Positions 40,454 through 47,584 of a stretch of DNA of 64,000 nt are shown in pieces. Source of the stretch: Methanocalculus natronophilus (lineage in GTDB: Archaea > Halobacteriota > Methanomicrobia > Methanomicrobiales > Methanocorpusculaceae). The notes beneath the pieces were generated by a model that had not been told where the DNA came from, ran no database searches, and saw only the letters and a list, made by a program, of their open reading frames with translations. Each line of letters begins with the position of its first letter. Within the stretch, counting starts at the first letter, position 1. The DNA lies in the NCBI RefSeq assembly GCF_038751955.1, contig NZ_JBCEXH010000003.1, positions 76,740 to 140,739 on the forward strand, given 5' to 3'. The translations under genes and the position numbers were made by a program.

Positions 40454-40849
40454 ATGACGATGAAGAGAAATGATGATGCGGTCTCACCCGTCATCGGTGT
40501 GATCCTGATGGTCGCCATCACCGTGATCCTGGCTGCAGTCATTGCAGCATTTGTGTTTGGTCTCGTCGGCGGCGTCGAAGGAGCAAAGGTTGTGGGTGTG
40601 ACTGCAACAAAGATTAATGACACTGCAGTAGGATTTACCTGGCAGGGTGGTGCCGATCTGGGAGCACTTATTAATGCAACTGCATTACTTGATGGAAATG
40701 ATGAACAGGTGGTTGGGGATAAGCCATATACTGTTGGATCCAGAGATATAGTTGACTTTAAAGGAGAAGATGTTGCAGGAAAGAGAGTTACTCTTGTTGG
40801 CGAGTTCGAGGATGGAATAAAACAAGTACTCCTTGAGCGAACCTTTTAA
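40454..40849 (+). CDS. Archaeal type IV pilin-like protein (DUF1628/pilin_N)
   Basis: 131 aa. The N terminus MTMKRNDDAVSPVIGVILMVAITVILAAVIAAFVFGLVG is the classical archaeal pilin signal: a short charged leader, the DDAVSPVIG cleavage region, and a 20-residue hydrophobic helix that forms the pilus core. Prepilin peptidase would cleave near the DDA/VSPVIG junction. The exported domain (~85 aa) is a small beta-rich head. GAGGTG precedes the ATG. Adhesion or surface pilus subunit; other pilus genes are not in the window. Confidence 0.9.
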   Translation: MTMKRNDDAVSPVIGVILMVAITVILAAVIAAFVFGLVGGVEGAKVVGVTATKINDTAVGFTWQGGADLGALINATALLDGNDEQVVGDKPYTVGSRDIVDFKGEDVAGKRVTLVGEFEDGIKQVLLERTF

Positions 40850-41514
40850 ACTCCATTCTCTTTTTTTCCTATTACGTATTCAACCATCCGCGCCGCCACC
40901 TTCTCCCGCTCGCCGCCGCATTTCCGTGCGATCGCGAGATGATGGTCGATCAGCCATTTGAGATCGGGATCGTGGTTCATCAGGTACCGGGTGCCGTGCA
41001 CCGCCGCCTCGATGATGGCATTGAAGCCCCGGTTCACCGGGTACATGGAGCAGATGCGCACCTCCTCTCTGACTGGGGTGAGGGTGATGCTGTATGCCTC
41101 GCTGCTCTCGCTGACAACCGCTGCCCGGAAGGCAACCCAGGCTTCGGCGGCAGCGAGGCGGTGCATCTCCATGCCATCAATTACCTCTGGCACAAAAGAA
41201 TCATCTGCCAGATCGCCAAACGCCGTCTCCACATAGATGACCGGGTCATGGATGATGTTTGCGACAAACCAGCCGTCACGGACGATATTCTCTGCGGTGT
41301 GACTTCCTTTGAAGAGGGCAAGGGCGAACTTCCCGTTCCGGTAGATAACACCCATTGGTGCGGCATTCAGGTGCGTGGTGCCGATCACCTCGTTGATCCC
41401 CTCCCTGAGGATGGTGCTCCTGGTGGAGGAAGTACCGGGGCCAGTGTTGGCCGGGCCGGTGGTGTCGGTGGTGCCGGTGCCGGGGCCGGTGGTGGGAGAT
41501 GGAATCAGTCCCAT
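40846..41514 (-). CDS. DUF447 family protein with Thr/Gly/Pro-rich N-terminal extension
   Basis: 222 aa from the ATG at 41514, inside the last bases of the CitG-like gene. The core begins ILREGINEVIGTTHLNAAPMGVIYRNGKFALALFKGSHTAENI and continues to DLKWLIDHHLAIARKCGGERE, the DUF447 (COG2457) flavin-reductase-like split barrel. It is preceded by about 30 residues of PTTGPGTGTTDTTGPANTGPG type low complexity, unusual for this cytosolic family. As I recall, COG2457 and CitG-like genes also occur in tetrahydromethanopterin gene sets of methylotrophic bacteria, so a C1-cofactor role is a reasonable guess. Function unproven. Confidence 0.8.
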   Translation of the reverse strand: MGLIPSPTTGPGTGTTDTTGPANTGPGTSSTRSTILREGINEVIGTTHLNAAPMGVIYRNGKFALALFKGSHTAENIVRDGWFVANIIHDPVIYVETAFGDLADDSFVPEVIDGMEMHRLAAAEAWVAFRAAVVSESSEAYSITLTPVREEVRICSMYPVNRGFNAIIEAAVHGTRYLMNHDPDLKWLIDHHLAIARKCGGEREKVAARMVEYVIGKKENGV

Positions 41515-42308
41515 CGCCACCCCTCCCTGAGTGCGACATAGATCCCGGCGATGGCAATATCTGCTAAAGATCCCGGGTTGATCCCGGATGCAATACATTC
41601 CTCATCAAATTCGGTGATAGAGAGCTCACCCCTGCAGACAGCCTGCGCCCGGAGCCGCGTCTCTTCGGCAACCGCCTCGCCGAACTTCTTTGCGATGAAG
41701 GTATCGGGAACCTCAGCCATCAGCTGGATAAATACCGGGCTGATCCCCCGTGCGCCATCAGATCGCCTGAGCAGTGCATCGGCAAACCGCCGGGTGAGCG
41801 AAAACCCCTCCACAATCTCGCGGCAGACCATATCGCGGGGGGCTGAATATGCCATGACATCATAAAGCGTCATGTGGCTCTCCCTGATCTGCTTAATTGA
41901 TTCCGGATCACGGACATCAAGGTCGTCTGACTGAAGCACCCGGACCTCGGTCTCAGCAAATGCCTGATAGAAGAGAACCGCATCGTCGACTGTTGTTGCC
42001 TGCATGATGCTTGCTGCTTCCTGGATATCCTGCCCGGCAAGAAGCGGCATAAGGAGAATAAACGCTCCAAAATGTGTATTGCCCCCTAAATGGCAGTTTG
42101 TCCTGATAACTGCGTCATAGAGGCCAGCGCCGATCCCAAGCCTTCCTTCTGACACTGCATCAAAGGAAGGGCGGCAGGCGATCACTGAAGCAAGAAAATG
42201 CTCGAGCCTGGTGTCGGGATAGTCGTGGCACCGATCAACATTGCCTGGTTTTGGGTGTGCCGTCACCTCAAGCATCATCGCGAGCTGCGCAAGCTCAGCA
42301 TTTGACAT
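41505..42308 (-). CDS. CitG/MdcB-like triphosphoribosyl-dephospho-CoA synthase family protein
   Basis: 267 aa from the ATG at 42308, which overlaps the upstream gene by 14 bp. Conserved core: LEVTAHPKPGNVDRCHDYPDTRLEHFLASVIACRPSF, GAGLYDAVIRTNCHLGGNTHFGAFILLMPLL. In bacteria the family makes the prosthetic group of citrate or malonate lyase from ATP and dephospho-CoA. No such lyase is seen here, so the archaeal paralogue probably makes a related nucleotide adduct. Operon: marker-9 fusion, this gene, DUF447. Confidence 0.85.
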   Translation of the reverse strand: MSNAELAQLAMMLEVTAHPKPGNVDRCHDYPDTRLEHFLASVIACRPSFDAVSEGRLGIGAGLYDAVIRTNCHLGGNTHFGAFILLMPLLAGQDIQEAASIMQATTVDDAVLFYQAFAETEVRVLQSDDLDVRDPESIKQIRESHMTLYDVMAYSAPRDMVCREIVEGFSLTRRFADALLRRSDGARGISPVFIQLMAEVPDTFIAKKFGEAVAEETRLRAQAVCRGELSITEFDEECIASGINPGSLADIAIAGIYVALREGWRWD

Positions 42309-43428
42309 CGGCGGGCACTTCACAAAAGATGTCCTCCATGATCTTCTCTGCAAGTCTCCGTTTCTGCTTCATATACTCAGTTTTGGAATTGCCAAGCTGT
42401 TTCAGGGTCATATCCCTGAACATGCAGGGAGTTGAGCTCTTGCAGCACCAGGCGAGGCTCCCAAAGCAGGTGTGGGATCCCTGATGCAGTGGCGTCCCCT
42501 CAGTTGCCGCCTGCTTCAGTTGCACATAGGTTTTTCGTTCAAGGCCGATTCCCTGTAAAATCGGAAGAAGCGGACACTCCTTCACCGGCATGCAGCAGAA
42601 AGTGAGGGCGCGGAGATCCCCTCCCCGGCAGAGCTGTTTTGGGGCATTATACCAGCCGACATCGTCAGCGTACCTGCGGATGGCGGCGTCAAGTCCTTTG
42701 AGCGTATGGAGATCAGACCTGCGGGCAAGAGAGACGAGATCTGCGCCATGGGAGAACTGCTCCATCACGCGGTCATAGGAGTGCATCGAGTTGTTGGCGA
42801 TGATCTGGAGGGGGCAGGCGTTCCTGATCTGGCGGATCTTCTGGTACCCGAAATCCATCAGATCGATATGGATGATGTCGGCACCGGCCTTCCAGAGCGC
42901 CTCTGCAAGCGCCTTTTCGTCAGTCAGTCCGGCACGGATCTTCACCGAGACGCAGACATCCATCTTCTTCAGGCCCCTGACGGCTTCACAGAGGTCATGG
43001 TGATGGGTGAGGTAATACTCTCCGCATCCCGCATCGATCATTGGCTGTTGTCGGCAATGGGCGTCAATTTCGTATACGGCGATATCACCGAGTTCATCTG
43101 CGAGACGGACAAACGATGACGGTTTCTTTCCCCTGAGATTGATACCCGGAACAATGTCAGATCCCTTTAGCTTCGCTACTTCGGACCGTATCCCCTCGAC
43201 CGGATCAGCAAAGAAAAACTCCTTCCTCCCGGCTTCTGCAAGATCGTGGCTTGCAAGTATCGTCTCCTCGTCTATAGAGAACCCTCCGAGGAAGGCAGCG
43301 CCGATATGGCCTCTCCTCTCAAGCGCATATGCCGCATCCACGATTCCCGCCATGGATGCAAGCGCAATTGGTGTCCGAACTATCTGCTGGTTTACCAGGA
43401 GTTCAAAACGTTCGTACGCCTCCATCAT
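42295..43428 (-). CDS. NifR3/Dus-like TIM barrel fused to methanogenesis marker 9 domain
   Basis: About 377 aa from the Met pair at 43423-43428; the frame is open to 43509 but those residues look like leader. Residues ~1-240 are a dihydrouridine-synthase-like (nifR3) barrel: TPIALASMAGIVDAAYAL, ADIIHIDLMDFGYQKIRQIRNACPLQIIANNSMHSYDRVMEQFSHGADLVSLAR. The C terminus carries the marker-9 Cys pattern: LTFCCMPVKECP, then LAWCCKSSTPC about 45 residues later, eight Cys in all with neighbours. The marker-9 domain is known only from methanogens and has no assigned function; it probably binds a metal or Fe-S cluster. First gene of the leftward operon, divergent from cfbA. Confidence 0.88.
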   Translation of the reverse strand: MMEAYERFELLVNQQIVRTPIALASMAGIVDAAYALERRGHIGAAFLGGFSIDEETILASHDLAEAGRKEFFFADPVEGIRSEVAKLKGSDIVPGINLRGKKPSSFVRLADELGDIAVYEIDAHCRQQPMIDAGCGEYYLTHHHDLCEAVRGLKKMDVCVSVKIRAGLTDEKALAEALWKAGADIIHIDLMDFGYQKIRQIRNACPLQIIANNSMHSYDRVMEQFSHGADLVSLARRSDLHTLKGLDAAIRRYADDVGWYNAPKQLCRGGDLRALTFCCMPVKECPLLPILQGIGLERKTYVQLKQAATEGTPLHQGSHTCFGSLAWCCKSSTPCMFRDMTLKQLGNSKTEYMKQKRRLAEKIMEDIFCEVPADVKC

Positions 43429-43454
43429 AGATTCTTTATAATTAGCAATGATAG

Positions 43455-43522
43455 GGGATATCCCTTTGCATCTGTTTTTTTGATCCGGATCGATAACACT
43501 TTTTAGCATCAGTTGTACAACT
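43455..43522. promoter_or_regulatory. Palindrome cluster in the marker-9/cfbA divergent promoter
   Basis: Three perfect palindromes occur in 68 bp: GGGATATCCC (43455-43464), GATCCGGATC (43482-43491) and AGTTGTACAACT (43511-43522). The last sits between a T-rich TATA candidate (~43500-43506) and the cfbA ATG at 43531. A repressor bound there would block the rightward promoter. The spacing suggests a leaderless cfbA mRNA. Confidence 0.5.
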
Positions 43523-43530
43523 CTTCTATA

Positions 43531-43935
43531 ATGGCTAAGAAAGGCTTACTACTGGTTGGACACGGGAGCAAACTTCCCCATAACAAAGAACTTGTCGAGA
43601 GCACTGCCGCGTTCATTGCAGCAAAGAACAATGGATATGTTGTCAAATCCGGGTTCATGAGCATGAACGAACCAAATGTTCCTGATGCAATAGAGGCGTT
43701 TGCAGACGAGGATATCAACCTCCTTGTTGTTGTTCCGTTATTCCTTGCAAAGGGCGTCCACATATTAAAGGATATCCCAGGCATCCTGGGACTGGAAGAA
43801 GGGAAGAAGAAGGGATCCATCACCCTGAAAGGAACGGAGATTCCCCTTGTCTACGCCGATCCTATCGGATCTGATCCCCTGCTTGCCGAACTGATGCTGA
43901 AGAATGCGGAGAATGCCATCCGCGATCATCTCTGA
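43531..43935 (+). CDS. cfbA: Sirohydrochlorin nickelochelatase CfbA
   Basis: 134 aa, the short CbiX form typical of methanogens. Conserved: AKKGLLLVGHGSKLPHNKELVESTAAFIAAK, VKSGFMSMNEPNVPDAI, VVVPLFLAKGVHILKDIPGILGL (metal-binding His residues), PLVYADPIGSDPLLAELML. It inserts Ni2+ into sirohydrochlorin, the first committed step to coenzyme F430. The ATG at 43531 is preferred to the upstream in-frame start (43513), which lies inside the palindrome. First gene of cfbA-E-D-B. Confidence 0.95.
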   Translation: MAKKGLLLVGHGSKLPHNKELVESTAAFIAAKNNGYVVKSGFMSMNEPNVPDAIEAFADEDINLLVVVPLFLAKGVHILKDIPGILGLEEGKKKGSITLKGTEIPLVYADPIGSDPLLAELMLKNAENAIRDHL

Positions 43936-43942
43936 TCTCCCC

Positions 43943-45139
43943 ATGCGGCTGCTCATCCTTGATACCATCCATGGCGGAGGCGTCATCGCCTCCGCTCTCC
44001 GTGAGCAGGGACTGAGCGTTGACTGCGTGGATGTATACCGGGGCAGCGACGGAATCTCAATAGAGACTGCCCAAAATACCCGGTATTCCTGTTGTATCGC
44101 ACCGGTTCACCTTGACCCGGCACACCCTCTTCTTCATGCCGGGATACCGGTTATCTCGCATCACCTGGCAGCAGGCATGCTCATCGGGGACAACCCGCCA
44201 GAGCCGTTCATCGAGATCACCGGAGAGCGCGGAAAGACGACAACAGCATTTGCACTGGCTCACCTGATGCCGGAACGTGGAGTTCTCCATTCATCCAGTG
44301 GCACAATCCGCTACCCGGAGATGGAGATGATCAGCAGATCAAGCATCACGCCTGCAAGCCTTCTTGCTCCTGCAGCAGAGGCACGCGCCATGAACGGGTG
44401 GTTCATTGGCGAATGCTCGCTTGGTGTTTCGGGAAGAGGGGATCTTGGTATCCTCACCTCAGATACCGATTACCGGATAGCAAATGGCAAATCGTCTGCG
44501 CTCGCTGCCAAACTGGAGCACCTGAAGACCTGTAAACAACTCCTCCTCCCGGACGGCATCAGAGGAATTGATCATCCCGATCAGCACAGGGTGGGCGCAA
44601 TCGCTTCCTGCGATGATACCACAGTCACATATGAGTATAAACAGATCTCCGGATCCTTTACCAATCCTCTCCTCTCCCTGAAAGGATATCAGGAACCGCT
44701 CACCTGTGCTGCTGCTGCTGCCTGCCTCCTCGGAACCGATCCCGCACCCCTTGCCCGGTTCAATGCACTTCCCGGGCGAATGCGGATATGGGAGGAGAAT
44801 GGCTGTATCTTTGTTGATGCGTCAAACAGCGGGACAAACAGGGAGACGACACGAGAAGCAGCAGCATATGCCCGGAGAAACCATCCCGGCTCCCCTCTTC
44901 ATCTCGTGATCGGCCAGGACGAACACGCAGTCTGCGAAAATTTTGCAGACGCGGATATCCGGATGGCAATAGAAGAGATAGAGCCAGACAAACTTACCAT
45001 AGTCCAGAGAAACCAGGATTATGATTTCGGATCCCGGTACCCGGAATCTGATGCCAAACGATCCCTGGATGAGGCAATCCGGGATGCTGCCAGGAAACCC
45101 GGATCAATTATTCTTCTGGCAGTAAAAACATGGAGATAA
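43943..45139 (+). CDS. cfbE: Coenzyme F430 synthetase CfbE (Mur ligase-like)
   Basis: 398 aa from the ATG at 43943, 7 bp after the cfbA stop. Mur-ligase P-loop EITGERGKTTTAFALAHL (~75), and a C-terminal ligase domain with FVDASNSGTNRETTREAAAYARR and LVIGQDEHAVCENFADADI. It closes the carbocyclic F ring of seco-F430 with ATP, the last step to F430. Gene order with cfbA, cfbD and cfbB supports the call. Confidence 0.93.
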   Translation: MRLLILDTIHGGGVIASALREQGLSVDCVDVYRGSDGISIETAQNTRYSCCIAPVHLDPAHPLLHAGIPVISHHLAAGMLIGDNPPEPFIEITGERGKTTTAFALAHLMPERGVLHSSSGTIRYPEMEMISRSSITPASLLAPAAEARAMNGWFIGECSLGVSGRGDLGILTSDTDYRIANGKSSALAAKLEHLKTCKQLLLPDGIRGIDHPDQHRVGAIASCDDTTVTYEYKQISGSFTNPLLSLKGYQEPLTCAAAAACLLGTDPAPLARFNALPGRMRIWEENGCIFVDASNSGTNRETTREAAAYARRNHPGSPLHLVIGQDEHAVCENFADADIRMAIEEIEPDKLTIVQRNQDYDFGSRYPESDAKRSLDEAIRDAARKPGSIILLAVKTWR

Positions 45140-45146
45140 GATTTAG

Positions 45147-46208
45147 ATGCACTACATTCAGCCACGCCCAAGTTCCATTGTTGCCGCACTCTATACCGCC
45201 CGTGATCTCGGCGTTGATGTGGCCATACTGCACGGTCCATCCGGATGCTCATTTAAACATGCACGCCTCCTCGAAGAGGACGGGCTCCGGGTGATTACCA
45301 CCTCACTCCAGGAGAACGAATTCATCTTCGGTGGCCAGCCGGTGCTTGAGGACGTCCTCAGGTATGCAGAAGAGACCTTCTCCCCGGAACGGATGGCAGT
45401 TATCGGGACCTGTGTCTCGATGATCATTGGTGAGGATATGCAGGCGGCGATCGACTCATCCGGTATTACGACACCAACTATTCCAATGGATATCCACGCC
45501 GGGTTTTCCGAGAATATCGATGGGGTCATTGCAGCTCTTGAACCTGCTGCTGCAATCGGCTGGATATCTGCAGACGAGCTCGACCGGCAGCGGACGCTGC
45601 TTGCCCGCGCAAACGAGGTGGAGCGGCTCAGGGGGGCTGCCTCAAAGCGGTATATCGAGCCGGAACGCGGTGACTTGAAACATATTGCCGCACGCGCCCT
45701 CCTCGACCTTGCCAGAAGCGGCAGGCGCGGCATGGCAGTCATGAATGCGAAAAAAGAGACTGCATACATGTTCATCGATGAGCTCCTTGCCCTCCATGAG
45801 AAAGCGCCTGATGCTGATATCTCCTATCTTGCTAACCTTGACGACCGGGGACTCCCAAAAGTCAGATCAGATGCAGAACGGATACGGGATGAGGTCTCCC
45901 GGCGTGGCCTTGATCCAACAATCCTTGGATCACTCGATGAATATGGTGCAATTGGTGAGGATATCGGGGCAGCTATCCGGGAAAGGGATCCGGAGTTTCT
46001 CTTCATCGTTGGTGTCCCCCATGCTGTCCCTGCTGAATACACTGAGGGGATCGAGGTCTTCTCGATAACAAACGGCCCCCGGCAGGTGGCGCCGCTGCGG
46101 GAACTCGGCCACCGGCATGTGATGGTCGAAATTGATCTCCACCCAAAAACCCTGGGTGTCCGGTCGGTTGTTGAAGCAGAATTCGGGGCCGTGCTCAGGA
46201 GCATGTGA
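45147..46208 (+). CDS. cfbD: Ni-sirohydrochlorin a,c-diamide reductive cyclase subunit CfbD (NifD-like)
   Basis: 353 aa, shorter than NifD as expected. Cys ligands for the shared Fe-S cluster appear in HGPSGCSFKHARLLEEDGL (~35) and AVIGTCVSMIIGEDMQAAI (~95). With CfbC (NifH-like), it performs the six-electron ring reduction that gives seco-F430. cfbC is not found in this window. Ends by overlapping cfbB. Confidence 0.95.
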   Translation: MHYIQPRPSSIVAALYTARDLGVDVAILHGPSGCSFKHARLLEEDGLRVITTSLQENEFIFGGQPVLEDVLRYAEETFSPERMAVIGTCVSMIIGEDMQAAIDSSGITTPTIPMDIHAGFSENIDGVIAALEPAAAIGWISADELDRQRTLLARANEVERLRGAASKRYIEPERGDLKHIAARALLDLARSGRRGMAVMNAKKETAYMFIDELLALHEKAPDADISYLANLDDRGLPKVRSDAERIRDEVSRRGLDPTILGSLDEYGAIGEDIGAAIRERDPEFLFIVGVPHAVPAEYTEGIEVFSITNGPRQVAPLRELGHRHVMVEIDLHPKTLGVRSVVEAEFGAVLRSM

Positions 46209-47584
46209 TGCGGACCCTCCTCATATCCGGTGATCGATCAGGCTGCGGAAAGACGAGCATTACGCTTGCAATATCTGCTATCCTTGCAAAGCGGATGAAG
46301 GTCCAGACCTACAAGGTCGGGATGGATTATATCGATCCCAGTTACCTGACCGGTGTCACCGGGAGGCCCTGCCGGAACCTGGATAGTTATGTGCTGGATG
46401 ATGGCGAGCTCCGCGGAGTGTATGCGCATGCAGCAGAGGGAGCAGACATCGGGATTATCGAAGGTGTGCGGGGCCTCTATGAGGGTGCCGAGGTCCTTGG
46501 AGATGTCGGGAGTACAGCATCAATTGCCAAAACGCTTGGCGTTCATGTGATCCTGGTCATCAATGCAAAAAGTATCACACGCAGTGCTGCAGCCATTGTG
46601 AAAGGATTTATGGCATTTGATCCAGGTGTCAGGATCAAAGGGGTTATCCTGAATAATATATCCCCGGGACGGCATCTTGAGAAGGCGAAGGGTGCAATCG
46701 AACACTACTGCGGGATTCCGGTTATCGGGGCTGTCCCGCATACGCCGCAGATGGAGCTTGCAATGCGGCATCTCGGGCTTGTTCCCTATCGTGAAGGAAA
46801 CGCTGATTCTGACTTTACTGAACGGATTGACGAGATAACCCGTGTCATTGAAGAGTATATCGATATGGACGCGCTCTACGCGCTTGCAGACGAGCCAGCT
46901 TCCAGTGGGACACCCCTCCCTGTTCTGACGCAGAGAACGGTTGCTGATCTGAGGATCGGTATTGCATATGACGAGGCGATCAACTTTTACTATGCCGATC
47001 TCTATGATCTGCTCACTGCGCATGGAGCCAAACCTGTTTTCTTCTCCCTGATACATGACTCTCTTCCTGATGCAGACGGCTATATCCTCGGAGGCGGTTA
47101 TCCCGAACTGTATGGCCGTGAACTGGAGGAGAACGCCTCCATGCGGGAAGCAATAGTTCGTGCGGCAGAAGCAGGCGTTCCTATCTATGCCGAGTGCGGC
47201 GGGCTGATGTACCTCTGCCGATCCATACAGACAAAGGCGGGATGGCAGGGCAGGGAGAGTGCTTTCAGATACCAGATGTGTGGTCTTTTCCCGGGTGATG
47301 CATCAATTCCATCCCGGCGGGTGCTTGGGTATGTTGAGGGGAGATCACATGGCGGGCTGATGGGGGAGTCGGATTTCCGTGGCCATGAATTCCATTACAG
47401 CGAGATTGTGATGAATCCTGGTGAGAGGTATATGTTCAGGCTTTCAAGGGGCGAGGGTATTTTTGATGGAAACGATGGTATTGTCTACAAAAACGCCATC
47501 GGGAGCTATGCTCACCTGCATCCGGTTGCGAGCAGCGATATGTTTGCATCATTTCTCTCTGCCTGCCGGGATGGGAGCGTTTGA
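46208..47584 (+). CDS. cfbB: Ni-sirohydrochlorin a,c-diamide synthase CfbB
   Basis: 458 aa CobB/CbiA-type amidotransferase. N-terminal P-loop LLISGDRSGCGKTSITLAISAILAK, then TYKVGMDYIDPSYLTGVTGRPCRNLDSYVLDD. C-terminal class I glutaminase-like domain: ILGGGYPELYGRELEENASMREAI, AECGGLMYLCRSIQTK (nucleophile Cys), FRGHEFHYSEIVM. Amidates the a and c side chains. The ATG at 46208 overlaps the cfbD stop; an adjacent GTG at 46205 is less likely. Confidence 0.95.
   Translation: MRTLLISGDRSGCGKTSITLAISAILAKRMKVQTYKVGMDYIDPSYLTGVTGRPCRNLDSYVLDDGELRGVYAHAAEGADIGIIEGVRGLYEGAEVLGDVGSTASIAKTLGVHVILVINAKSITRSAAAIVKGFMAFDPGVRIKGVILNNISPGRHLEKAKGAIEHYCGIPVIGAVPHTPQMELAMRHLGLVPYREGNADSDFTERIDEITRVIEEYIDMDALYALADEPASSGTPLPVLTQRTVADLRIGIAYDEAINFYYADLYDLLTAHGAKPVFFSLIHDSLPDADGYILGGGYPELYGRELEENASMREAIVRAAEAGVPIYAECGGLMYLCRSIQTKAGWQGRESAFRYQMCGLFPGDASIPSRRVLGYVEGRSHGGLMGESDFRGHEFHYSEIVMNPGERYMFRLSRGEGIFDGNDGIVYKNAIGSYAHLHPVASSDMFASFLSACRDGSV

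Follow-up and report, generated by a model that had tools for sequence, protein, structure and literature searches.

The window analyzed in this article is a stretch of 64,000 nucleotides from Methanocalculus natronophilus (contig NZ_JBCEXH010000003.1, positions 76,740 to 140,739). It contains three leftward genes, which encode a marker-9 protein, a CitG-like protein, and a DUF447 protein, standing back to back with the cfbA-E-D-B operon of coenzyme F430 synthesis. Judged from gene distribution, the CitG-like protein and the DUF447 protein are most likely parts of the known biosynthesis of the one-carbon coenzyme tetrahydromethanopterin (H4MPT) and not of a new pathway. Both are placed in the H4MPT gene set because they co-occur with beta-RFAP synthase and lie next to it, this enzyme catalyzing the committed step of H4MPT synthesis (PMC6787355); as far as genome data can show, the membership is established. 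With good confidence, the locus can be described as two H4MPT genes that are led by marker-9 and that, in this taxonomic order, lie back to back with the F430 operon.

Distribution of the CitG-like and DUF447 genes

The phylum of the window was sampled with one genome per genus, and the group names of genomes numbered with a G are inferred. CitG and DUF447 are both present in 77 of the 78 genera sampled. The pair is also found in archaeoglobal-type and haloarchaeal genomes that contain neither marker-9 nor CfbD; hence, the two families are not methanogen-specific, and they come off the list of supposed methanogen-only mysteries. Neither DUF447 nor RFAP synthase is present in G008 and G049, two related haloarchaeal genomes from a single genus; CitG, tested only in G008, is missing there as well. 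Among the control genomes, M. jannaschii, H. volcanii, S. acidocaldarius, and M. acetivorans show matches to CitG, DUF447, and RFAP synthase; of these three, only CitG is matched in E. coli.

The association extends to bacteria. Scanning the collection with a DUF447 alignment yielded 80 bacterial loci, mostly from planctomycetes and also from Gemmatimonadetes, Acidobacteria, and Anaerolineae. Of these loci, 76 have room for a neighboring RFAP synthase gene, and in 63 of them it directly adjoins DUF447; a PabA-like gene adjoins DUF447 in 50 of all 80. Some of the clusters additionally hold a DHPS-like protein (TIGR00284), an MfnF-like protein, an Mpt_N dehydrogenase, an AfpA-like flavoprotein, and CitG. 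Exactly one CitG-type gene is present in 29 of 31 bacterial genomes with DUF447. In one bacterial phylum (that of locus L121), DUF447 is a patchy trait, being found in 17 of 150 genomes; these 17 and 63 DUF447-negative genomes were combined to a test set (n = 80). RFAP synthase occurs in 17/17 positive versus 0/63 negative genomes, beside DUF447 every time, and CitG in 16/17 versus 0/63 (Fisher p ~1e-17 and ~6e-16, respectively, without correction for phylogeny).

Direct linkage to other H4MPT genes is seen in a Methanosarcinaceae-like genome (L156), where marker-9, CitG, and DUF447 are followed by a TIGR02700 dihydromethanopterin reductase (328.5 bits, cut-off 251). In the window, known H4MPT genes do not adjoin the trio, and the RFAP synthase of this genome is located on a different contig (G000:C6). 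A tblastn search of plasmids with DUF447 gave no match. In a methylotroph, afpA together with orf19 to orf22 (orf19-orf20-afpA-orf21-orf22) forms an H4MPT gene island (PMC3615186).

An earlier note on this DNA saw no citrate or malonate lyase and considered a pathway for a methanogenesis cofactor, which is the right class. To our knowledge, genes have been assigned to only some of the methanopterin steps after RFAP synthase. Two named candidates with testable chemistry are provided by a gene set that follows this enzyme one to one across archaea and bacteria.

The marker-9 protein and its position next to the cfb genes

The marker-9 protein consists of an archaeal dihydrouridine synthase (Dus; nifR3) barrel (residues ~26-236) and an eight-cysteine marker-9 domain (residues 258-365). 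It scores 152.5 bits with the marker-9 profile TIGR03277 (cut-off 96.2) and 94.9 bits with the archaeal nifR3-like barrel profile TIGR00736, which is under the cut-off of 218.7. The eight cysteines C267, C278, C279, C285, C321, C328, C329, and C335 are invariant in 33 aligned proteins, and the barrel motifs DAHCR and SVKIR match the archaeal Dus motifs NxHC(K/R) and KxR. The protein is predicted to be a Dus-type flavoprotein barrel with an eight-cysteine domain that probably binds a metal or an Fe-S cluster. Structure prediction from the single sequence was uninformative, with a mean predicted local distance difference test score of 34, and a literature search on marker 9 returned nothing usable.

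According to PMC3674756, the motifs D/N-x-H-C-R and KxR characterize the archaeal subfamily of Dus. The marker-9 protein could thus act on archaeal tRNA as a dihydrouridine synthase equipped with a zinc or Fe-S domain, and its H4MPT neighborhood would then be functionally incidental; we regard this as a serious possibility, short of an even chance. It agrees with the barrel being kept in G008 and G049, both without DUF447 and RFAP synthase, and being missing in many genomes in which RFAP synthase, CitG, and DUF447 are retained. Hence, the barrel is not a general H4MPT enzyme, and an obligate role in H4MPT synthesis was rejected on the same two observations. An incidental neighborhood is, however, difficult to reconcile with the order barrel-CitG-DUF447 recurring in haloarchaea (L048, L157, and L160) and in many methanogen families, which makes the linkage old. 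A tRNA enzyme also fits poorly with L035:10359-11312 (genome G039), where the cysteine domain is retained and the barrel has neither a recognizable HC motif nor a TIGR00736 match. In archaeoglobal and haloarchaeal genomes, the barrel is present and the cysteine domain absent. Because the three haloarchaeal loci keep the order with a barrel that is devoid of this domain, the linkage of the barrel to CitG-DUF447 either predates the cysteine domain or outlived its loss.

Marker-9 and F430 synthesis do not strictly coincide either. Genome G129 (~100% complete) carries the marker-9/CitG/DUF447 trio (L036, contig G129:C3) with no match to CfbD, so that marker-9 can occur where F430 is not made or where CfbD has diverged; in G005, G014, and G030, CfbD is present and marker-9 absent. 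Marker-9 is thus loosely linked to the CitG-like and DUF447 genes and separable from both the H4MPT and the F430 pathway. The live options for its role are tRNA dihydrouridylation and a methanogen-specific redox step near H4MPT. Its restriction to methanogens, which the earlier note took as established, stands for the cysteine domain in our sample; it does not extend to the barrel, which non-methanogens carry, and it is qualified by the domain of G129 occurring without CfbD. The truly methanogen-specific part here is the eight-cysteine marker-9 domain.

The block DUF447-CitG-marker-9/cfbA-E-D-B was read directly in 24 of the 27 genera sampled from the window's order (window included). With the seven-gene divergent block shared by 23 genera besides that of the window, a chance layout is excluded. 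G114, from the window's own family, is a true exception, as no cfb gene was matched at its trio locus (L032) and CfbD lies on a different contig. The two other genera of the order that lack the block (G268 and G125) look like contig breaks. Among the 32 other genera with marker-9 and CfbD, the close divergent layout was found in none, a count limited by contig fragmentation; in G020 and G050, which are outside the order, the cfb cluster is located 4-11 kb from the trio. The adjacency is thus a lineage-level trait of the window's order, as it is kept inside the order and the close layout was not found outside. Co-regulation of both operons within the order is possible and is made plausible by this conserved adjacency.

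The spacer between marker-9 and cfbA varies widely in length among relatives. In ~9 of the 24 genera, it contains a conserved Hjc-type gene of ~150 amino acids that lies on the marker-9 strand and heads the leftward operon (L140, L141, L144, L145, L147, L149, L152, and L134). The one member tested matches archaeal Hjc resolvase (PF01870) weakly, with 23.9 bits versus a cut-off of 21.1. The window has no such gene between marker-9 and cfbA, and neither Rfam elements nor tRNAs were found in the spacers tested. A conserved short shared promoter was dropped because of the variable spacer length and the Hjc-type gene often lying inside.

These data also bear on the proposal of the earlier note that the trio forms a pathway not described before, specific to methanogens and controlled together with F430, which would serve a cofactor or RNA modification. 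The trio is indeed kept in several methanogen families, is back to back with cfb in the 24 genera of the order, and lies 4-11 kb from it in two genera outside. Such a pathway nonetheless appears improbable: CitG and DUF447 occur in planctomycetes, Gemmatimonadetes, and archaea without CfbD, where they track RFAP synthase; trio and CfbD are uncoupled in G129 and marker-9 and CfbD in G005, G014, and G030; and even within the window's own family, the trio of G114 is not beside cfb. For CitG and DUF447, a methanogen-specific F430-linked pathway is largely refuted. A general F430 link is rejected outside the order, because genomes with marker-9 but no CfbD exist, as do genomes with CfbD but no marker-9.

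Proposed roles in the H4MPT side chain

The CitG-like protein belongs to PF01874 (227.2 bits, cut-off 27) and falls far below the equivalogs of this family, with 36.1 versus 272.3 bits for CitG and 26.2 versus 282.35 bits for MdcB. No citX/citDEF or mdc genes are adjacent in the window, to which the search was confined, whereas citG of E. coli sits with citX, citF, citE, and citD. In an alignment, the H4MPT-associated CitG-like proteins retain the CitG scaffold motifs E..PKPG, N[TV], and PG..AD, and the lysine of the NTHKG motif is replaced in every H4MPT-associated protein examined, the sequence being mostly NTHFG in archaea and NTNLG in bacteria. The retained scaffold and the changed NTHKG fit related chemistry on another acceptor. 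A genuine CoA-derived prosthetic group for an acyl-carrier protein, of the kind used by citrate or malonate lyase, is suggested as the product by the family membership of the CitG-like protein and by the naming of annotated relatives (e.g., PDB 3h9p), but it is very improbable given the profile cut-offs, the gene context, the replaced lysine, and a single-copy co-occurrence that is with RFAP synthase; a link to these lyases was rejected on the first two of these grounds.

In the CitG reaction, ATP donates its 5-triphosphoribosyl group to dephospho-CoA, and an alpha-glycosidic bond is formed. In methanopterin, the 5-OH of deoxyribitol bears an alpha-ribofuranosyl 5-phosphate. By analogy, the CitG-like protein most likely adds the second, alpha-linked ribose of the H4MPT side chain; this second ribosyl transfer is the most economical assignment because CitG makes the same bond type on dephospho-CoA. 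In forming this second glycosidic bond, the protein would place a 5-phosphorylated ribose, in alpha configuration, onto the 5-OH of the 1-deoxyribitol unit. The ribosyl donor may be ATP or phosphoribosyl pyrophosphate. If it is ATP, inversion of the beta-nucleoside would explain the alpha anomer, and the 5-triphosphate of the product could react with alpha-hydroxyglutarate under release of pyrophosphate, as CitX acts on the product of CitG. In a far-reaching version that we consider rather doubtful, the CitG-like protein would be the missing methanopterin ribosyl transferase (ATP in, adenine out, with the triphosphate driving the attachment of alpha-hydroxyglutarate), haloarchaea would make a ribosylated H4MPT-like pterin with RFAP-like, CitG, and DUF447 proteins, and marker-9 would be a redox addition of methanogens. 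A link between methanopterin and triphosphoribosyl was not found in the literature searched.

The DUF447 protein matches DUF447_N with 98.9 bits (cut-off 24) and DUF447_C with 63.1 bits (cut-off 24.8). Homologs of solved structure are 2nr4, 2iml, 2ptf (MTH_863), and 3b5m (E values 4e-33 to 1e-9), which are probably split barrels with bound flavin mononucleotide. The protein may be a flavin-dependent reductase of the H4MPT pathway, for example converting the ribofuranose to deoxyribitol; this role fits and is weakly supported. At its N terminus, a glycine-, threonine-, and proline-rich stretch of ~30 residues (41425-41514, minus strand) is missing in aligned homologs, and is either a true extension or a misplaced start.

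Several points weigh against the assignment to H4MPT synthesis. The association test in the L121 phylum takes no account of shared ancestry. Genome G453 has RFAP synthase and DUF447 with no CitG detected, and G093 shows RFAP matches but no DUF447; assembly gaps may account for both cases. In the methylotroph island, orf19 and orf20 are only putative counterparts of the CitG-like and DUF447 genes, and the donor, acceptor, and step order proposed above are all inferred. Finally, haloarchaea are described as tetrahydrofolate users without methanopterin-specific enzymes (PMC8305020), and yet they carry RFAP-like, CitG, and DUF447 genes. This raises the question of why haloarchaea retain this set.

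As a separate observation, RFAP-like, CitG-like, and DUF447 genes and a Dus barrel ahead of CitG are seen in the haloarchaeal-type loci L048, L157, and L160 and genomes G025, G044, and G099.

Gene layout and comparison with known systems

Of the leftward genes, marker-9 and the CitG-like gene overlap by 14 bp and the CitG-like and DUF447 genes by 10 bp, which makes one transcript likely. Open reading frames and families agree with the overlapping operon described in the earlier note. All four F430 enzymes of the window score above their NCBIfam cut-offs and are arranged in the order cfbA-E-D-B. The cfbA frame opens with TTG at 43513, and the start by homology is the ATG at 43531; hence, the divergent spacer, put at ~100 bp in the earlier note, measures 102 bp. 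On the other side, an archaeal type IV pilin gene (PF07790; 40454-40849, plus strand) is convergent with the DUF447 gene and slightly overlaps its end.

Table 1. Features of the marker-9/CitG-like/DUF447 and cfb locus in the window
Feature	Position	Strand	Evidence
Marker-9 protein gene, 377 amino acids	42295..43428	-	TIGR03277 and TIGR00736 profile scores
CitG-like gene; proposed phosphoribosyl/triphosphoribosyl transferase, H4MPT side chain	41505..42308	-	PF01874
DUF447 gene; proposed flavin-binding redox step, H4MPT synthesis	40846..41514	-	PF04289 and PF20766
Divergent intergenic region, marker-9 gene to cfbA, 102 bp	43429..43530	.	Open reading frame ends and homologous cfbA start
cfbA, sirohydrochlorin nickelochelatase	43531..43935	+	NF033198, 152.9 bits, cut-off 120
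cfbE, coenzyme F430 synthase	43904..45139	+	NF033197, 309.9 bits, cut-off 250
cfbD, Ni-sirohydrochlorin a,c-diamide reductive cyclase catalytic subunit	45147..46208	+	TIGR03282, 504.9 bits, cut-off 268.4
cfbB, Ni-sirohydrochlorin a,c-diamide synthase	46205..47584	+	NF033195, 620.9 bits, cut-off 560

Compared with known systems, each protein of the trio shows both likenesses and differences. The structures 2nr4, 2iml, 2ptf, and 3b5m are homologous to the DUF447 protein over most of its length, and the entries themselves carry no function assignment. With archaeal Dus (the archaeal subfamily of COG0042; TIGR00736/MJ0144 family), the marker-9 barrel shares NxHC(K/R) and KxR; unlike these enzymes, the protein scores under the family cut-off and bears the extra eight-cysteine domain. 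The CitG-like protein shares the superfamily and the motifs PKPG, N[TV], and PG..AD with the CitG/MdcB triphosphoribosyl-dephospho-CoA synthases (PF01874), from which it differs by falling under the equivalog cut-offs, by the lack of a lyase context, and by the change of NTHKG to NTHFG. As in the bacterial H4MPT clusters (RFAP synthase MptG, DUF447, afpA/dmrB, and a DHPS-like gene; orf19 to orf22), the CitG-like and DUF447 genes of the window co-occur with RFAP synthase. In those clusters, they are physically joined to RFAP synthase and other H4MPT genes, whereas in the window marker-9 heads the pair and the cfb genes are neighbors.

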